From positions 1-64,000 of the forward strand of contig NZ_KE386945.1 in NCBI RefSeq assembly GCF_000429725.1: a stretch of 64,000 bases of DNA. Reading direction: 5' to 3'. This document shows, piece after piece, positions 1,591-9,857 of the stretch (positions are counted from its first letter, which is position 1; each line of letters opens with the position of its first letter). The notes beneath the pieces were generated by a model. That model did no database searches and was not told the origin of the DNA. It saw nothing but the letters and a program-made list of their open reading frames with translations. A program made the translations under genes and the position numbers. The stretch is from Alkalicoccus chagannorensis DSM 18086 (GTDB taxonomy: Bacteria > Bacillota > Bacilli > Bacillales > Salisediminibacteriaceae).

Positions 1591-2427
1591 CTACTGCAGC
1601 AGCCTCAGCACGCTGCTCATCTGCTGGTTGGCCTGGGCCATCATCGCCATCGACACCTGGCCGAGGAGGCTCGCGCGTGTCATCTCCATCATCTGCTTCG
1701 CGACATCGACGTCGCGGATGCGGGATTCGGATGACGTTAAGTTCTCTGAAGCATTCGCCAGGTTGGAGATCGTGTGGCCGAGGCGGTTCTCATACGCCCC
1801 GAGCTTCGAGCGTTCGGAAGACACCCGGCCGATGGCGCCGTCAATGACGTCCAGCGCACTGTTAGCCGCCTCCCGGGAGGAAATATTAATGCCGCCCCCG
1901 ACTGATGCCTCAGCACCACCTGCCACGCCGAGCGATTCGGCCCGCATATCGCCGATGGTGATCCGCATGTGCTGCCCGCTGTTGGCGCCGATCTGCAGCC
2001 GCCCGTCAAACGAGCCGTCAAGCAACGGTCTTGTGTTGAATTCCGTCGCTTCCCCGATCCGGGACAGTTCACCGACCAACTGATCCACTTCCTTCTGCAG
2101 TGCTGCCCGGTCCGTGTCCGTATTCGTATCGTTCGCGGCCTGCACCGTCAGCTCACGGACCCGCTGCAACATGGAATGCGTTTCATTCAAACCGCCCTCC
2201 GCCGTCTGAATGAGTGAAATCCCATCCTGTGCGTTGCGCCCCGCCTGGTCCAGCCCGCGGATCTGCGCCCGCATCTTCTCGGAAATCGCGAGCCCCGCCG
2301 CATCGTCGCCGGCCCGGTTGATCCGCATGCCCGAAGACAGCTGCTCCATCGCGGTCTGCATCGACTGCTGATGCCTCATCATAAAACGGTGCGTCTGCAT
2401 CCCAACCATCTTCATATGCGTGATCAT
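1591..2427 (-). CDS. Flagellin, divergent copy (flagellin A)
   Basis: A 278-residue flagellin with conserved D0/D1 helices at both ends ([18 protein letters not shown] in the N-terminal part; SRIRDVDVA and MAQANQQ in the C-terminal part) and a short GC-rich middle. The start is the ATG of MITHMKMV, eight bases after GGAGG, not the ATG seven codons earlier. The N-terminus ([14 protein letters not shown]) and C-terminus (SVLRLLQ) depart from the usual [15 protein letters not shown] and NVLQLLG, so it may be a specialised or minor filament subunit. It follows flagellin B after a good terminator and has its own sigma-D-like -10 box. No clear terminator was seen after it. Confidence 0.92.
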
Positions 2428-2465
2428 CGCCACGACCTCCGTTCGCATGATTCCCTTTGCATCTT

Positions 2466-2553: not shown

Positions 2554-3390
2554 TTACCCGAGAAGCTGCAGTACCGACTGCGGCTGCTGGTTTGCTTGCG
2601 CCAACATCGATTGAGATGCCTGAGAAAGGATGTTCGCACGCGTCTGCTCCATCATTTCAGATGCCATGTCTACATCGCGAATGCGAGATTCTGCAGCTGA
2701 GAGATTCTCAGAAGCATTGTCAAGGTTGGCAATTGTATGTTCAAGTCGGTTTTGAACTGCACCTAGGTAGGAACGACCTTCAGAAACGGCTACAATTTGT
2801 TCATTAATAGTATCAATCGAATCGTTCCACTGTTCTTGACTTCCACCATCTGTAAAATCTAGCCCATTAAGTGTATCATAAATATCTGTTAGATCCACCT
2901 CATCAAAGTCAACCGTAATACTTTCTCCAGCATTAGCTCCAACTTGGAAAATCACATCTCCATCTTCCTGCGTTTCTCCATCAAGAAGATTCTCTGTATT
3001 GAATTGTGTATTATCTTTAATTCTCTCAATTTCTTCTACAAGTTGGTTTACTTCTGCTTCTATAGCTTCTCTATCGTCTTGAACGTTCGTATCATTAGCT
3101 CCTTGAACTGCCAGCTCTCGCATTCTCTGGAGAATCGAATGAACTTCATCTAGAGCACCTTCGGCAGTTTGAATCATCGATATACCGTCCTGCGCATTTC
3201 GAGATGCTTGATCTAAGCCATTGATCTGAGCTCGCATTTTCTCAGAAATAGAAAGACCTGCGGCGTCATCGCCTGCTCTATTAATTCGCATACCAGAAGA
3301 TAGTTTCTCCATGGAAGACTGCATGGCATTTTGATTCATTCCCATTTGACGGTGAGTGTTCATAGCTGCAATATTATTGTTGATAATCAT
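2554..3390 (-). CDS. Flagellin, second copy (flagellin B)
   Basis: A 278-residue flagellin with canonical ends ([17 protein letters not shown] at the N-terminus, [12 protein letters not shown] at the C-terminus) and an acidic middle (about residues 125-200) that is clearly AT-richer than its ends. The start is the ATG eight bases after GGAGG; the open frame upstream to 3456 is leader. It lies directly downstream of the csrA paralogue, separated by a strong hairpin terminator and a leader with a GGA-loop hairpin. The composition break inside the gene suggests exchange of the surface-exposed domain by recombination (inference). Confidence 0.95.
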
Positions 3391-3415
3391 ATTAAAAACC
3401 TCCGTGTGTGTAGTA

Positions 3416-3431
3416 GGCACTTCCATGTGCC
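3416..3431 (-). promoter_or_regulatory. Predicted CsrA-binding hairpin in flagellin B leader
   Basis: In the mRNA, GGCAC and GUGCC pair to present the loop AUGGAA, 25 bases before the start codon. The ribosome binding site itself (ACGGAGG) supplies a second GGA. A GGA-loop hairpin followed by a GGA in the Shine-Dalgarno is the arrangement known for CsrA repression of B. subtilis hag. Confidence 0.65.
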
Positions 3432-3505
3432 CCTTTGTAGTCAAAAAACGTTCCAACAGCCAGTTGTTTATCCTGTTACAGCCTCACCTCCTTGAAAGAA
3501 TTAAA

Positions 3506-3563
3506 AAGGACGAGTGGAAAAGCAGACACGTGGGTGACGTGTGCCGCTTTTCCACTCGTCCTT
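3506..3563 (-). terminator. Terminator 2, between csrA paralogue and flagellin B
   Basis: A perfect 18-bp inverted repeat (arms 3506-3523 and 3546-3563) with an inner ACACGT/ACGTGT extension. In the minus-strand RNA the 3' arm runs into UUUUU. It lies 18 bases after the csrA paralogue stop and should terminate unless its 5' arm is sequestered. Confidence 0.8.
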
Positions 3564-3571
3564 GAATGGAA
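3550..3571 (-). promoter_or_regulatory. Predicted antiterminator 2 with CsrA loop AAGGAC
   Basis: The RNA segments UUCCAUUC and GAGUGGAA pair over 8 bp (one G-U) and present the hexaloop AAGGAC. The 3' half of this hairpin is the 5' arm of terminator 2, so the two folds exclude each other. Confidence 0.55.
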
Positions 3572-3581
3572 GAAACGTGAT

Positions 3582-3830
3582 TTATGCAATGGGTTCCGAC
3601 GGTTCGTTTTCTTTTATCTGCCGGAGGGCGGTCGCTGCTTTCGCTCTCATATCCGGAACAACGATCTCTCTCTCCTGCTGTTCTTCATAAACCTCGCCAC
3701 GGACGATGGAGACATGATCCGGGGCCTCTACCGCGAGACGCAGCTGACCTTTCTTGTTTTTCACAACCCTGACCTTAATGTCATCACCTATAACGATGTA
3801 TTCTCCCGGCTCACGACCTACGACCAGCAT
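3582..3830 (-). CDS. CsrA-family RNA-binding protein, divergent paralogue
   Basis: An 82-residue CsrA-like protein (MLVVGREPGEYIVIGDDI at the N-terminus), slightly longer than the 78-residue CsrA at 9175. The RNA-contact arginines corresponding to R6 and R44 of CsrA are present (VGR and IVRGEVY). The usual LSRK is VGRE, and the EEN motif whose N55 is needed for FliW control in B. subtilis is replaced (ERE). It may therefore bind RNA but escape FliW (inference). AGGAGGG lies eight bases before the ATG. It is the first gene of a sigma-D-driven unit ending in flagellin B, with an attenuator-like terminator on either side. Confidence 0.88.
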   Translation of the reverse strand: MLVVGREPGEYIVIGDDIKVRVVKNKKGQLRLAVEAPDHVSIVRGEVYEEQQEREIVVPDMRAKAATALRQIKENEPSEPIA

Positions 3831-3867
3831 TTGAGAACCCTCCTTTGATTAAGTAGAAAATCGGACA

Positions 3868-3950
3868 CAAAAAAGAATGAGTGAACGGGCAGAAGAAACA
3901 ATGAATAACTAACGTATTCATCCCTTGCAACGACCGGCTCACTCATCCTT
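3868..3950 (-). terminator. Terminator 1, in leader of csrA paralogue
   Basis: Outer stem of 12 bp (arms 3873-3884 and 3939-3950, one wobble) enclosing an inner ATGAATA/TATTCAT stem. In the minus-strand RNA the 3' arm is followed by UUUUUU. It sits about 40 bases before the start codon, inside the transcript from the promoter at 4027-4053, and so looks like a leader attenuator. Confidence 0.75.
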
Positions 3951-3956
3951 GAATGA
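3939..3956 (-). promoter_or_regulatory. Predicted antiterminator 1 with CsrA loop AAGGAU
   Basis: In the RNA, UCAUUC and GAGUGA pair over 6 bp and present the hexaloop AAGGAU. The run CAAGGAUG matches the core of the CsrA SELEX consensus (RUACARGGAUGU). It overlaps the whole 5' arm of terminator 1, so the two structures are mutually exclusive. Confidence 0.55.
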
Positions 3957-4026
3957 TCCCGTTATGTCGGACATTCCCTCCATCCAAGAGGAAATGTTTA
4001 TGTGGGCTTGCTTGTGTCTAATTATA

Positions 4027-4053
4027 TTATCGGCGAAAGAATAATAATGTTTA
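4027..4053 (-). promoter_or_regulatory. Sigma-D promoter of csrA paralogue-flagellin B unit
   Basis: The minus strand reads TAAA, 15 bases, GCCGATAA: a perfect -35 and spacing and one mismatch to the GCCGATAT -10 of sigma-D promoters. Transcription would start near 4020, leaving a leader of about 190 nt that holds terminator 1. Confidence 0.8.
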
Positions 4054-4139
4054 GCATCAAACAAATTTTTTTTGAAATATTTTTATTAAATTCGTCAAAG
4101 AATAATTATAGTCATCTATATTCATTAAATGCTGTTTAC

Positions 4140-9174: not shown

Positions 9175-9411
9175 CTATTTTTCGCTCTCCGAATTTTTTT
9201 CGGCCAATTCATTTAAAATGTTTAAATCAAATTGAGATGCCTGCGCATTCTCTTCCTGAATCGCGACGTAGACCTCTTTTCGGTGGATGTCGACGTTCTT
9301 TGGGGCGTTGATGCCGAGCTTCACCTGGTCGCCCTCGACAGACACGACGGTGATTTCAATATCGTCGCCGATCTTGATCGACTGCTGTTCCTTGCGGGAG
9401 AGGACGAGCAT
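9175..9411 (-). CDS. csrA: CsrA, translational regulator of flagellin
   Basis: A 78-residue canonical CsrA: MLVLSRK at the N-terminus, GDQVKLGI in the core, IHRKEVY with the RNA-binding arginine, and QEEN with N55, the residue known in B. subtilis to be needed for FliW antagonism. The dimer binds GGA-containing hairpins near ribosome binding sites and blocks translation. It overlaps the fliW stop by one base (TAATG), as expected for the coupled fliW-csrA pair. Targets visible here are the hag and flagellin B leaders. Confidence 0.97.
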
Positions 9412-9857
9412 TATGATTCCCCCTTCACGGTCTGCAGCGGGATCGGCGTCTGCGTTGAGTAGTCGGAGTCGCTCAAGGCAATCTGCCGGCCTCGTTTCTG
9501 GACGTGGTTAATAACGATCGGCCCGCGCAGGTTCACGGTGGAGTCGGCGAGCGATCCTTTCAGCGTCAGGACGACAAAGAGCGAGACGTCGCTCTCCTGT
9601 TCGATGGCGAGCGATTCGATCGTCTGATCAGACAGCGCTGCCTCGTAGTCAGGGAAGAACGTAAACGGATCCATAATGACGAAAGCGAGTCCCGGGGTGT
9701 GGATGGACTGGAGCAGGTAGTAGGGGCTCGGTCCTTCGCCGAACGGAAGCAGGATAAACGCTTTCTCGTCTTCGAATCCGGGCATGCCGAGTTCAAAGGT
9801 CGTAATGTTCGCTTCATTGATCGTGAGAGGGCCGCTGTATTTCGTTTCGATCTGCAC
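9411..9857 (-). CDS. fliW: FliW, flagellin-binding antagonist of CsrA
   Basis: A 148-residue protein with the family features [13 protein letters not shown] near the N-terminus and LRGPIVIN in the C-terminal part. FliW binds either flagellin or CsrA, tying flagellin translation to flagellin secretion (established in B. subtilis). It starts at a GTG seven bases after GGAGG. It is directly coupled to csrA. The 173 bases between yviE and fliW hold no gene. Confidence 0.96.

Follow-up and report, generated by a model that had tools for sequence, protein, structure and literature searches.

Conserved RNA elements with two exclusive folds at csrA2-flagellin loci of Bacillota: candidate CsrA-dependent antiterminators

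Introduction

How does a transcript that begins at a flagellar promoter get past intrinsic terminators to the flagellin gene behind them? The question is raised by a locus in the window, the whole stretch of 64,000 nucleotides from Alkalicoccus chagannorensis DSM 18086 that we analyzed. Its minus strand carries, in order, a sigma-D-type promoter, a GGA hairpin, an RNA element (element 1), the csrA paralogue csrA2, a second element (element 2), an AUGGAA leader hairpin and a flagellin gene (Table 1). The answer bears on the gating of flagellin transcription after sigma-D, and on CsrA, which is among the best-studied bacterial RNA-binding proteins. The mechanisms of CsrA given in the consulted part of a review are control of translation, RNA stability and Rho-dependent termination (PMC7652899), RNA pairing is credited to it elsewhere, and we found no report of CsrA acting on intrinsic terminators in the open part of PubMed Central. 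If CsrA does oppose intrinsic termination directly, this would add a new mode of action, and it would account for the second csrA that many Bacillota retain within the flagellin locus.

Table 1. Features of the csrA2-flagellin locus and of csrA1 in the window.
Feature	Position	Strand	Evidence
Sigma-D-type promoter TAAA-N15-GCCGATAA	4027..4053	-	exact match to consensus
GGA-loop hairpin, 11 bp, loop UGGAU, just 5' of element 1; candidate second CsrA site	3971..3997	-	-14.4 kcal/mol, z -3.3
Element 1, putative antiterminator hairpin UCAUUC-AAGGAU-GAGUGA	3939..3956	-	folding and family pairing
Element 1, intrinsic terminator with U run	3869..3950	-	-40.7 kcal/mol, z -4.5, 0/200 shuffles as good
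csrA2, CsrA paralogue, 82 aa	3582..3830	-	PF02599 E 1.8e-20
Element 2, putative antiterminator hairpin UUCCAUUC-AAGGAC-GAGUGGAA	3550..3571	-	folding
Element 2, intrinsic terminator with U run	3503..3563	-	-43.7 kcal/mol, z -11.7, 0/200 shuffles as good
AUGGAA-hexaloop hairpin in flagellin leader, then GGAGG Shine-Dalgarno	3415..3432	-	-9.8 kcal/mol, z -1.7, 12/200 shuffles as good
Flagellin gene 3' of element 2 (flagellin B of the first-pass annotation)	2554..3390	-	PF00669 E 2.4e-51, PF00700 E 5.6e-30
csrA1, canonical CsrA with I51 and N55, adjoining fliW-like ORF 9411-9857	9175..9411	-	PF02599 E 2.1e-27

Results

Layout and folding of the two elements

The promoter call in Table 1 uses what we take to be the sigma-D consensus, and the ORF beside csrA1 is presumably fliW. 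Each element consists of three strands: a 5' arm, a middle strand that directly follows an A(N)GGA loop, and a 3' arm that precedes a U run; the middle strand can pair either with the 5' arm, giving a small hairpin (hairpin 1), or with the 3' arm. Hairpin 1 of element 1 sits inside a terminator of 3950-3873 with its U run at 3874-3869, and that of element 2 inside a terminator of 3563-3506 with its U run at 3507-3503. A first-pass annotation, made from the sequence alone, had placed intrinsic terminators on the minus strand at 3868-3950 and 3506-3563, with 5' arms that could pair alternatively into AAGGAU and AAGGAC hairpins. Both terminators are present, and both alternative folds form as it had written them. 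Its further remark that the hexaloops fit the CsrA loop rule agrees with the ANGGAN motif in the consulted part of the review (PMC7652899).

Folded alone, the small hairpins of the window elements are not striking: the hairpin region of element 1 has a predicted energy of -11.6 kcal/mol (z -1.8, 10/200 shuffles as good) and that of element 2 of -9.7 kcal/mol (z -2.8, 3/200 shuffles as good). An extra A-U pair closes the loop of element 1 further in the predicted fold, leaving AGGA. We then compared the terminator with the fold in which hairpin 1 is forced, and obtained -34.2 versus -21.8 kcal/mol for element 1 and -43.7 versus -23.9 kcal/mol for element 2, so that the terminator is ahead by 12 and 20 kcal/mol, respectively. 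Because the terminator is so much the stronger fold, only a kinetic trap can work, and any CsrA binding would have to act during RNA synthesis. A simple terminator scan of the window listed only an inner stem of element 2 and missed element 1, the long stems of which contain bulges or mismatches.

Several neighbouring features deserve mention in their own right. The AUGGAA hairpin of the flagellin leader is, by analogy, reminiscent of the known CsrA sites of hag. Two adjacent sugar-transfer associated ATP-grasp genes (PF14397; 4140-6658, minus strand) lie between csrA2 and another flagellin gene and are odd cargo for a flagellar cluster. A third flagellin gene, with an unusual N terminus, lies downstream of the csrA2 operon (1591-2448, minus strand), and positions 1-1464 hold near-identical, repeated ORFs with similar leaders that we take to be cold-shock-like.

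Distribution of the element and linkage to csrA2

One to three copies of the element are visible by eye in nine of ten related csrA2-type loci; no copy was found by eye in L011 (genome G052), where the neighbouring flagellins run the opposite way. We built a covariance model (R1) on 21 copies from ten genomes, one of them the window's, and searched 397 genomes of the order with it. At E<=1e-3, 31 genomes match, comprising nine training genomes, eleven new ones and eleven others. All eleven new genomes have csrA2 and flagellin at the match; among the eleven others, the loci of ten (all but G078) were inspected, and neither csrA nor flagellin was found in any of them. Nine of the eleven new genomes outscore every decoy and two do not, the bit scores of true matches in G304 (37.0) and G133 (32.0) overlapping that of decoy G055 (38.4). 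Within the 3.5 Mb of the window's genome, R1 at E<=0.05 finds only the two elements, both in the training set, and the mirror of one of them.

A scan of genomes with a csrA2 alignment gave 122 candidate loci, of which the best 76 were kept; they span Paenibacillus, Halobacillus, Pontibacillus, Alkalicoccus, Clostridium, Tepidibacter, Desulfosporosinus, Sporomusa and others. Of the 151 matches of R1 (E<=0.1) on these loci, 135 share the strand of csrA2 and come from 68 loci; the other 16 are on the opposite strand, each mirroring one of the 135. With a degenerate copy in L134, the element is present in 69 of the 76 loci (the best 76 of 122 candidates). It is absent from the other seven (L089, L118, L120, L121, L125, L127 and L135), of which two are Sporomusa. 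Three of the seven (L120, L121 and L125) are additional csrA2-like genes, and the genomes concerned do have copies at their other locus. The copies of L117 stand 0.7-0.9 kb past csrA2, with no recognised gene after them.

These 76 loci were selected for csrA2, and the claim of linkage rests on the scans of the 397 genomes. A broader model, R2, was trained partly on those genomes, which leaves R1 as the independent test. R2 finds the element in 22 of 24 genomes with csrA2 (none in G052 and G348) and in one of 373 without it, the weak decoy G055 (Fisher p 9e-33), where csrA2 was called above 60 bits, a line drawn after the scores had been seen. When csrA2 is called at E<=1e-10, 29 genomes have it and 22 of the 29 have the element; the five below 60 bits (G022, G257, G279, G300 and G320) do not.

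On 398 genomes of the class, R2 at E<=1e-4 matches six: three csrA2 genomes and three decoys, two beside a PTS gene (L138 and L139) and one without assigned context (L140). Of 20 genomes picked via their csrA2 loci, 18 have matches and the two Sporomusa genomes have no element. Of the 40 matches, 37 lie at the csrA2 locus and two are weak; the one strong copy off the locus precedes a FliD_N gene in Clostridium ganghwense (L148 1490-1590, minus strand), from which the switch may serve other late flagellar genes. The next same-strand gene is of csrA2 type for 110 of 159 pooled copies (median distance 39 nt) and a flagellin gene for 42 (median 116 nt); seven of the 159 have neither within 400 nt.

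We also searched the window and the 76 csrA2 loci (1.33 Mb, both strands) strictly for terminators overlapped by an A(N)GGA hairpin. This gave 112 matches, 93 in elements and 19 elsewhere, some of the latter in the same leaders. A single Markov resample of these 1.33 Mb yielded nine matches.

The decoys were inspected separately. Five weak model matches (L050, L052, L054, L057 and L060) have by eye the RAT-like motif CTGATTCGATCAGGCATGAGT. Of these, only L054 was checked against Pfam, and it is flanked by a CAT_RBD/PRD gene and a PTS EIIC gene; L138 precedes a PTS EIIC gene. Among the decoys is an antiterminator of the RAT type next to PTS genes, an established switch with a comparable layout. 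Four further matches outside csrA2 loci (L053, L055, L058 and L059) look like plain terminators by eye and were set aside. G055 has three repeated terminator-like matches away from any csrA, L049 with a possible UGGAC hairpin, and these could be an unrelated mobile repeat. A known RNA family was rejected as an identity: at the gathering score, Rfam 15 gave no match on L001-L010 and none over the elements in seven other loci. At E<=1, only four sub-threshold microRNA models fell on the elements within window positions 3400-4100, and RsmV scored a sub-threshold 11.4 bits on the flagellin leader against a cut-off of 100.

Other observations were made at these loci. The csrA2 leaders of L067, L073, L077, L079 and L087 are 0.78-0.87 alike to that of L067 over 120 nt, across Paenibacillus, Sporosarcina, Lederbergia, Peribacillus and Domibacillus, a likeness that suggests transfer of the locus. 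A second, shorter csrA2-type gene lies 5' of csrA2 in five genomes (G006/L003, G036/L004, G013/L008, G021/L010 and G004/L009), in several of them with a copy of the element before it. Bacillus salacetis has a group I intron upstream of csrA2 (RF00028, 93 bits; L094 2982-3330), and in Salibacterium aidingense (L113 from 4001) csrA2 ends early and the elements persist.

Two exclusive folds on a common strand

We pooled 159 copies, 135 from the csrA2-selected loci and 24 others, of which 100 are non-redundant. The loop of hairpin 1 (site 1) is a hexaloop in 77 of the 100 and a pentaloop in 23, and its first base is A in every copy. Judged by sequence, site 1 has what marks a CsrA target RNA, a short hairpin whose loop contains ANGGAN or GGA. 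The stem is shorter than 3 bp in 11 of the 100, with 1 bp in eight (L099, L107, L116 and L132) and 2 bp in three (L129 and L130). Prefix RNA lacking the 3' arm of the terminator is predicted to fold hairpin 1 in 77 of 100 elements, compared with 2-8 when the 5' arms are shuffled (ten rounds). Full RNA is predicted to form the terminator in 83 and hairpin 1 in none; 23 prefixes are without hairpin 1, and 17 full RNAs fail the terminator test.

To quantify pairing we counted kept pairs against 2000 permutations, which ignore kinship; the counts are uncorrected for phylogeny, and the loop size was picked for the longer stem. Pair 3 of hairpin 1 is kept in 93 of 100 copies (CG 70, UG 11, AU 7, GU 3, GC 2; permutation maximum 83) and pair 4 in 83 (permutation maximum 77), counts that no permutation reached. 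Pairs 1 and 2 are nearly invariant and hence uninformative, pair 5 is weak (46 of 100, matched by 27 of the 2000 permutations), and pair 6 showed no significant pairing in the 100 copies. The arms of the hairpin pair in 414 of 500 cells when in register and in at most 240 when slid.

The triplets at position 3 include C-G-C (56), A-U-A (6) and G-C-G (2). The AU type at pair 3 occurs in Clostridium, Tepidibacter, Desulfosporosinus and two metagenome bins, and the GC type in C. magnum and C. ragsdalei. The hairpin arm and the terminator arm both covary with the common middle strand, and the 5' arm of hairpin 1 lies outside the terminator, yet its pairing is kept. The first-pass annotation had named a lack of covariation in relatives among three outcomes that would refute its reading; in relatives both folds are kept with compensating changes. 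Two mutually exclusive folds on one common strand, with a terminator and U run, are the mark of a protein-dependent intrinsic antiterminator, and the elements display both.

A second CsrA-type site

Most copies have a further loop of the same kind. A hairpin with an A(N)GGAN loop stands at the apex of the terminator in 73 of the 100 non-redundant copies, compared with a mean of 2.5 and a maximum of 7 in shuffles; its loop is AGGAN in 70 and AAGGAY in 3, and GC/GC pairs close it in 56. The GGA-to-GGA distance from site 1 to the apical site has a median of 31 nt (quartiles 30-32, range 23-35), which falls inside the range of 10-63 nt over which a CsrA dimer bridges two sites, according to the consulted part of the review (PMC7652899).

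The apical hairpin was found neither in the two window copies nor in the two copies of L002, from the same genus. Instead, element 1 is preceded by the GGA hairpin of Table 1, whose GGA lies 37 nt from that of element 1 and whose first loop base is U rather than the A of ANGGA. Such a GGA hairpin within 75 nt upstream occurs in nine of the 27 copies without an apical site, window element 1 among them, versus four of the 73 with one (shuffle expectation 0.2 and 0.5, respectively; Fisher p 0.0008 with kinship ignored, several of the nine being Halobacillus or Pontibacillus). No partner site was found for the other 18 of the 27, which include window element 2. One or two extra A(N)GGA hairpins lie ahead of the element in L122 (3600-3640), L078 (3670-3880) and L092 (3870), putatively like a small CsrA-binding array. 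The first-pass annotation was right about two real elements in the window; the apical site of other species, the upstream GGA hairpin and the breadth of the family lay beyond its view.

The second site invites the opposite reading of the elements, in which CsrA binds the apical loop of the terminator, aids its folding and switches csrA2 and flagellin off. The apical loop found in 73 of 100 copies would indeed stay open in the terminated RNA. This reading leaves unexplained why a 5' arm outside the terminator is kept in register with compensating changes and why upstream GGA hairpins are commoner where the apical site is missing; the terminators, moreover, are already very stable alone. We regard it as improbable.

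Two further readings were rejected. According to the consulted part of PMC3369931, ANTAR proteins (EutV, NasR, AmiR) recognise a pair of small loops as dimers, and formation of a hairpin precludes the terminator. A protein of this or another RNA-binding kind could read the hexaloops here and antiterminate; they have A at position 1 and G at position 4 like ANTAR targets, in a similar layout. However, 13 of 17 element-bearing genomes tested, among them the window's, have no ANTAR domain (PF03861), pentaloops without the G at position 4 account for 23 of 100 loops at site 1 and for 70 of 73 at the apex, and the linkage is to csrA2. The combination of two A1/G4 hexaloops and an ANTAR protein in the genome was thus not found, and we give this reading next to no credence. 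It is also very improbable that the elements are ordinary bidirectional terminators in which AAGGA...UCCUU resembles CsrA loops by chance. Such letters are favoured by the need of AAGGAY to pair with the U-rich 3' end, and the model also picks up the opposite strand of element 2 and of several other copies. Against this stand the about nine hairpin-terminator combinations per 1.33 Mb in the resample versus 93 in elements, together with the covariation, the second site, its spacing and the csrA2 linkage.

Promoters and the CsrA2 protein

In 40 of 80 loci a sigma-D-like site lies no more than 250 nt upstream of the first element (shuffle 0.6); after removal of similar leaders the count is 32 of 70 (shuffle 0.56). 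Between the last element and flagellin such a site occurs in one of 78 loci (shuffle 0.7), or one of 68 without similar leaders; the strict motif misses half of the leaders, so its absence is not proof. A sigma-70 scan of window positions 3380-4110 found one site, the sigma-D one itself (shuffles give 1.3), and neither a sigma-D-like nor a sigma-70-like site was found between element 2 and flagellin in the window. The lack of a recognisable promoter there means that polymerase from the leader promoter must pass the terminators, and supports read-through as the output.

A nearby promoter would also suit a reading in which the terminated leader is itself the product, a short sponge RNA for CsrA comparable to enterobacterial CsrB; a sigma-D-like promoter stands close by in half of the loci (40/80), and in some species, for example at L122, one leader holds several GGA hairpins. 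We consider it a distinctly poor prospect. Site 1 is buried in the terminated RNA, where hairpin 1 is kept in 0 of 100 predictions, elements also occur between csrA2 and flagellin, a place where a sponge would have no use for a terminator, and flagellin has no preceding promoter of the kinds sought.

The csrA2 product of the window keeps R6 and R44 and has Q and E at residues 51 and 55. R6 and R44 are present in all 75 csrA2 proteins compared (L113 of the 76 was omitted as cut short), as befits members of the CsrA/RsmA family. FliW-regulated CsrA has V/I51 and N55 with a C-terminal extension, according to the consulted part of PMC7829508; V/I51 is found in none of the 75 and N55 in two, and both I51 and N55 are present in the window's csrA1. 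CsrA2 is predicted to be blind to FliW, and so could keep up its own expression. Of 18 genomes tested, 17 have two or more csrA genes and G787 has one.

Discussion

The observations made directly here, namely anatomy, conservation, covariation of two folds, a second site at regular spacing, promoter layout and csrA2 linkage, make it probable in our judgment that the elements are cis-acting RNA switches by which a CsrA-family dimer (CsrA2, CsrA1 or both) antiterminates transcription. A conserved hairpin that excludes a terminator and carries a CsrA loop is a natural device for passing terminators. The first-pass annotation had proposed an antitermination switch of this kind; covariation, ANGGAN loops and association with a csrA paralogue across Bacillota now speak for it. 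CsrA as the ligand, kinetic trapping and read-through are what we infer.

The switch would operate as follows. In the emerging RNA, the 5' arm would pair at once with the bases after the A(N)GGA loop to form hairpin 1. Without CsrA, the later terminator arm would displace this hairpin, the far more stable terminator with its U run would form, and polymerase would stop. Binding of a CsrA dimer would lock hairpin 1, ideally with the dimer also gripping another GGA-loop hairpin some 31 nt off, at the apex in most species and upstream in the window; the base of the terminator could then not close, and polymerase would continue into csrA2 and then flagellin. The net sign for flagellin is ambiguous, because free CsrA represses flagellin translation in B. 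subtilis, according to the consulted part of the review (PMC7652899).

A broader picture can be drawn, to which we give slightly less than an even chance. Across Bacillota the elements may form one class of CsrA-dependent antiterminators: a CsrA paralogue blind to FliW would bring about read-through of the terminators in its own sigma-D operon, a positive-feedback latch that would commit the cell to an extra flagellin. One dimer would hold two loops at near-fixed spacing, and in some lineages the second loop would have moved from the apex of the terminator into the leader upstream, with the two-site design retained. The family is large, lies in Bacillota and is apparently undescribed; if the reading is true, its members are compact, portable switches.

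It is instructive to compare the elements with known systems. In the BglG/SacY/LicT/GlcT-RAT systems, a protein stabilises a hairpin that overlaps an intrinsic terminator at its 5' arm, a layout like that proposed here. The RNA sequence and loop differ, and here CsrA-type loops occur at two or more sites with csrA2 and flagellin as neighbours; a CAT_RBD domain, expected with a RAT, was found in none of seven window proteins scanned. The consulted part of a review on B. subtilis assigns terminator/antiterminator control to TRAP, PyrR, GlcT, SacY, SacT and LicT, and to CsrA hag and sRNA pairing. ANTAR systems share with our proposal a dimer on two loops and a hairpin that excludes the terminator (PMC3369931, in the part consulted), but there the second hairpin overlaps the terminator, whereas here it is the first, and the second site is apical or upstream.

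Two CsrA systems, both as described in the consulted part of PMC7652899, are also close. The CsrA-FliW-hag system of B. subtilis likewise combines csrA, fliW-like and flagellin genes with a GGA hairpin and Shine-Dalgarno sequence in the leader, and hag has two CsrA sites, one of them on the Shine-Dalgarno sequence. Its known output, however, is translational repression, whereas the sites described here lie on transcription terminators, and the operon here contains a csrA paralogue without the FliW contact residues. In the pgaA leader of E. coli, CsrA remodels the RNA, exposes Rho sites and promotes termination, thus altering transcription elongation by leader remodelling as we propose here. 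That termination is Rho-dependent and promoted by CsrA; here the terminators are intrinsic and the predicted sign is the opposite.
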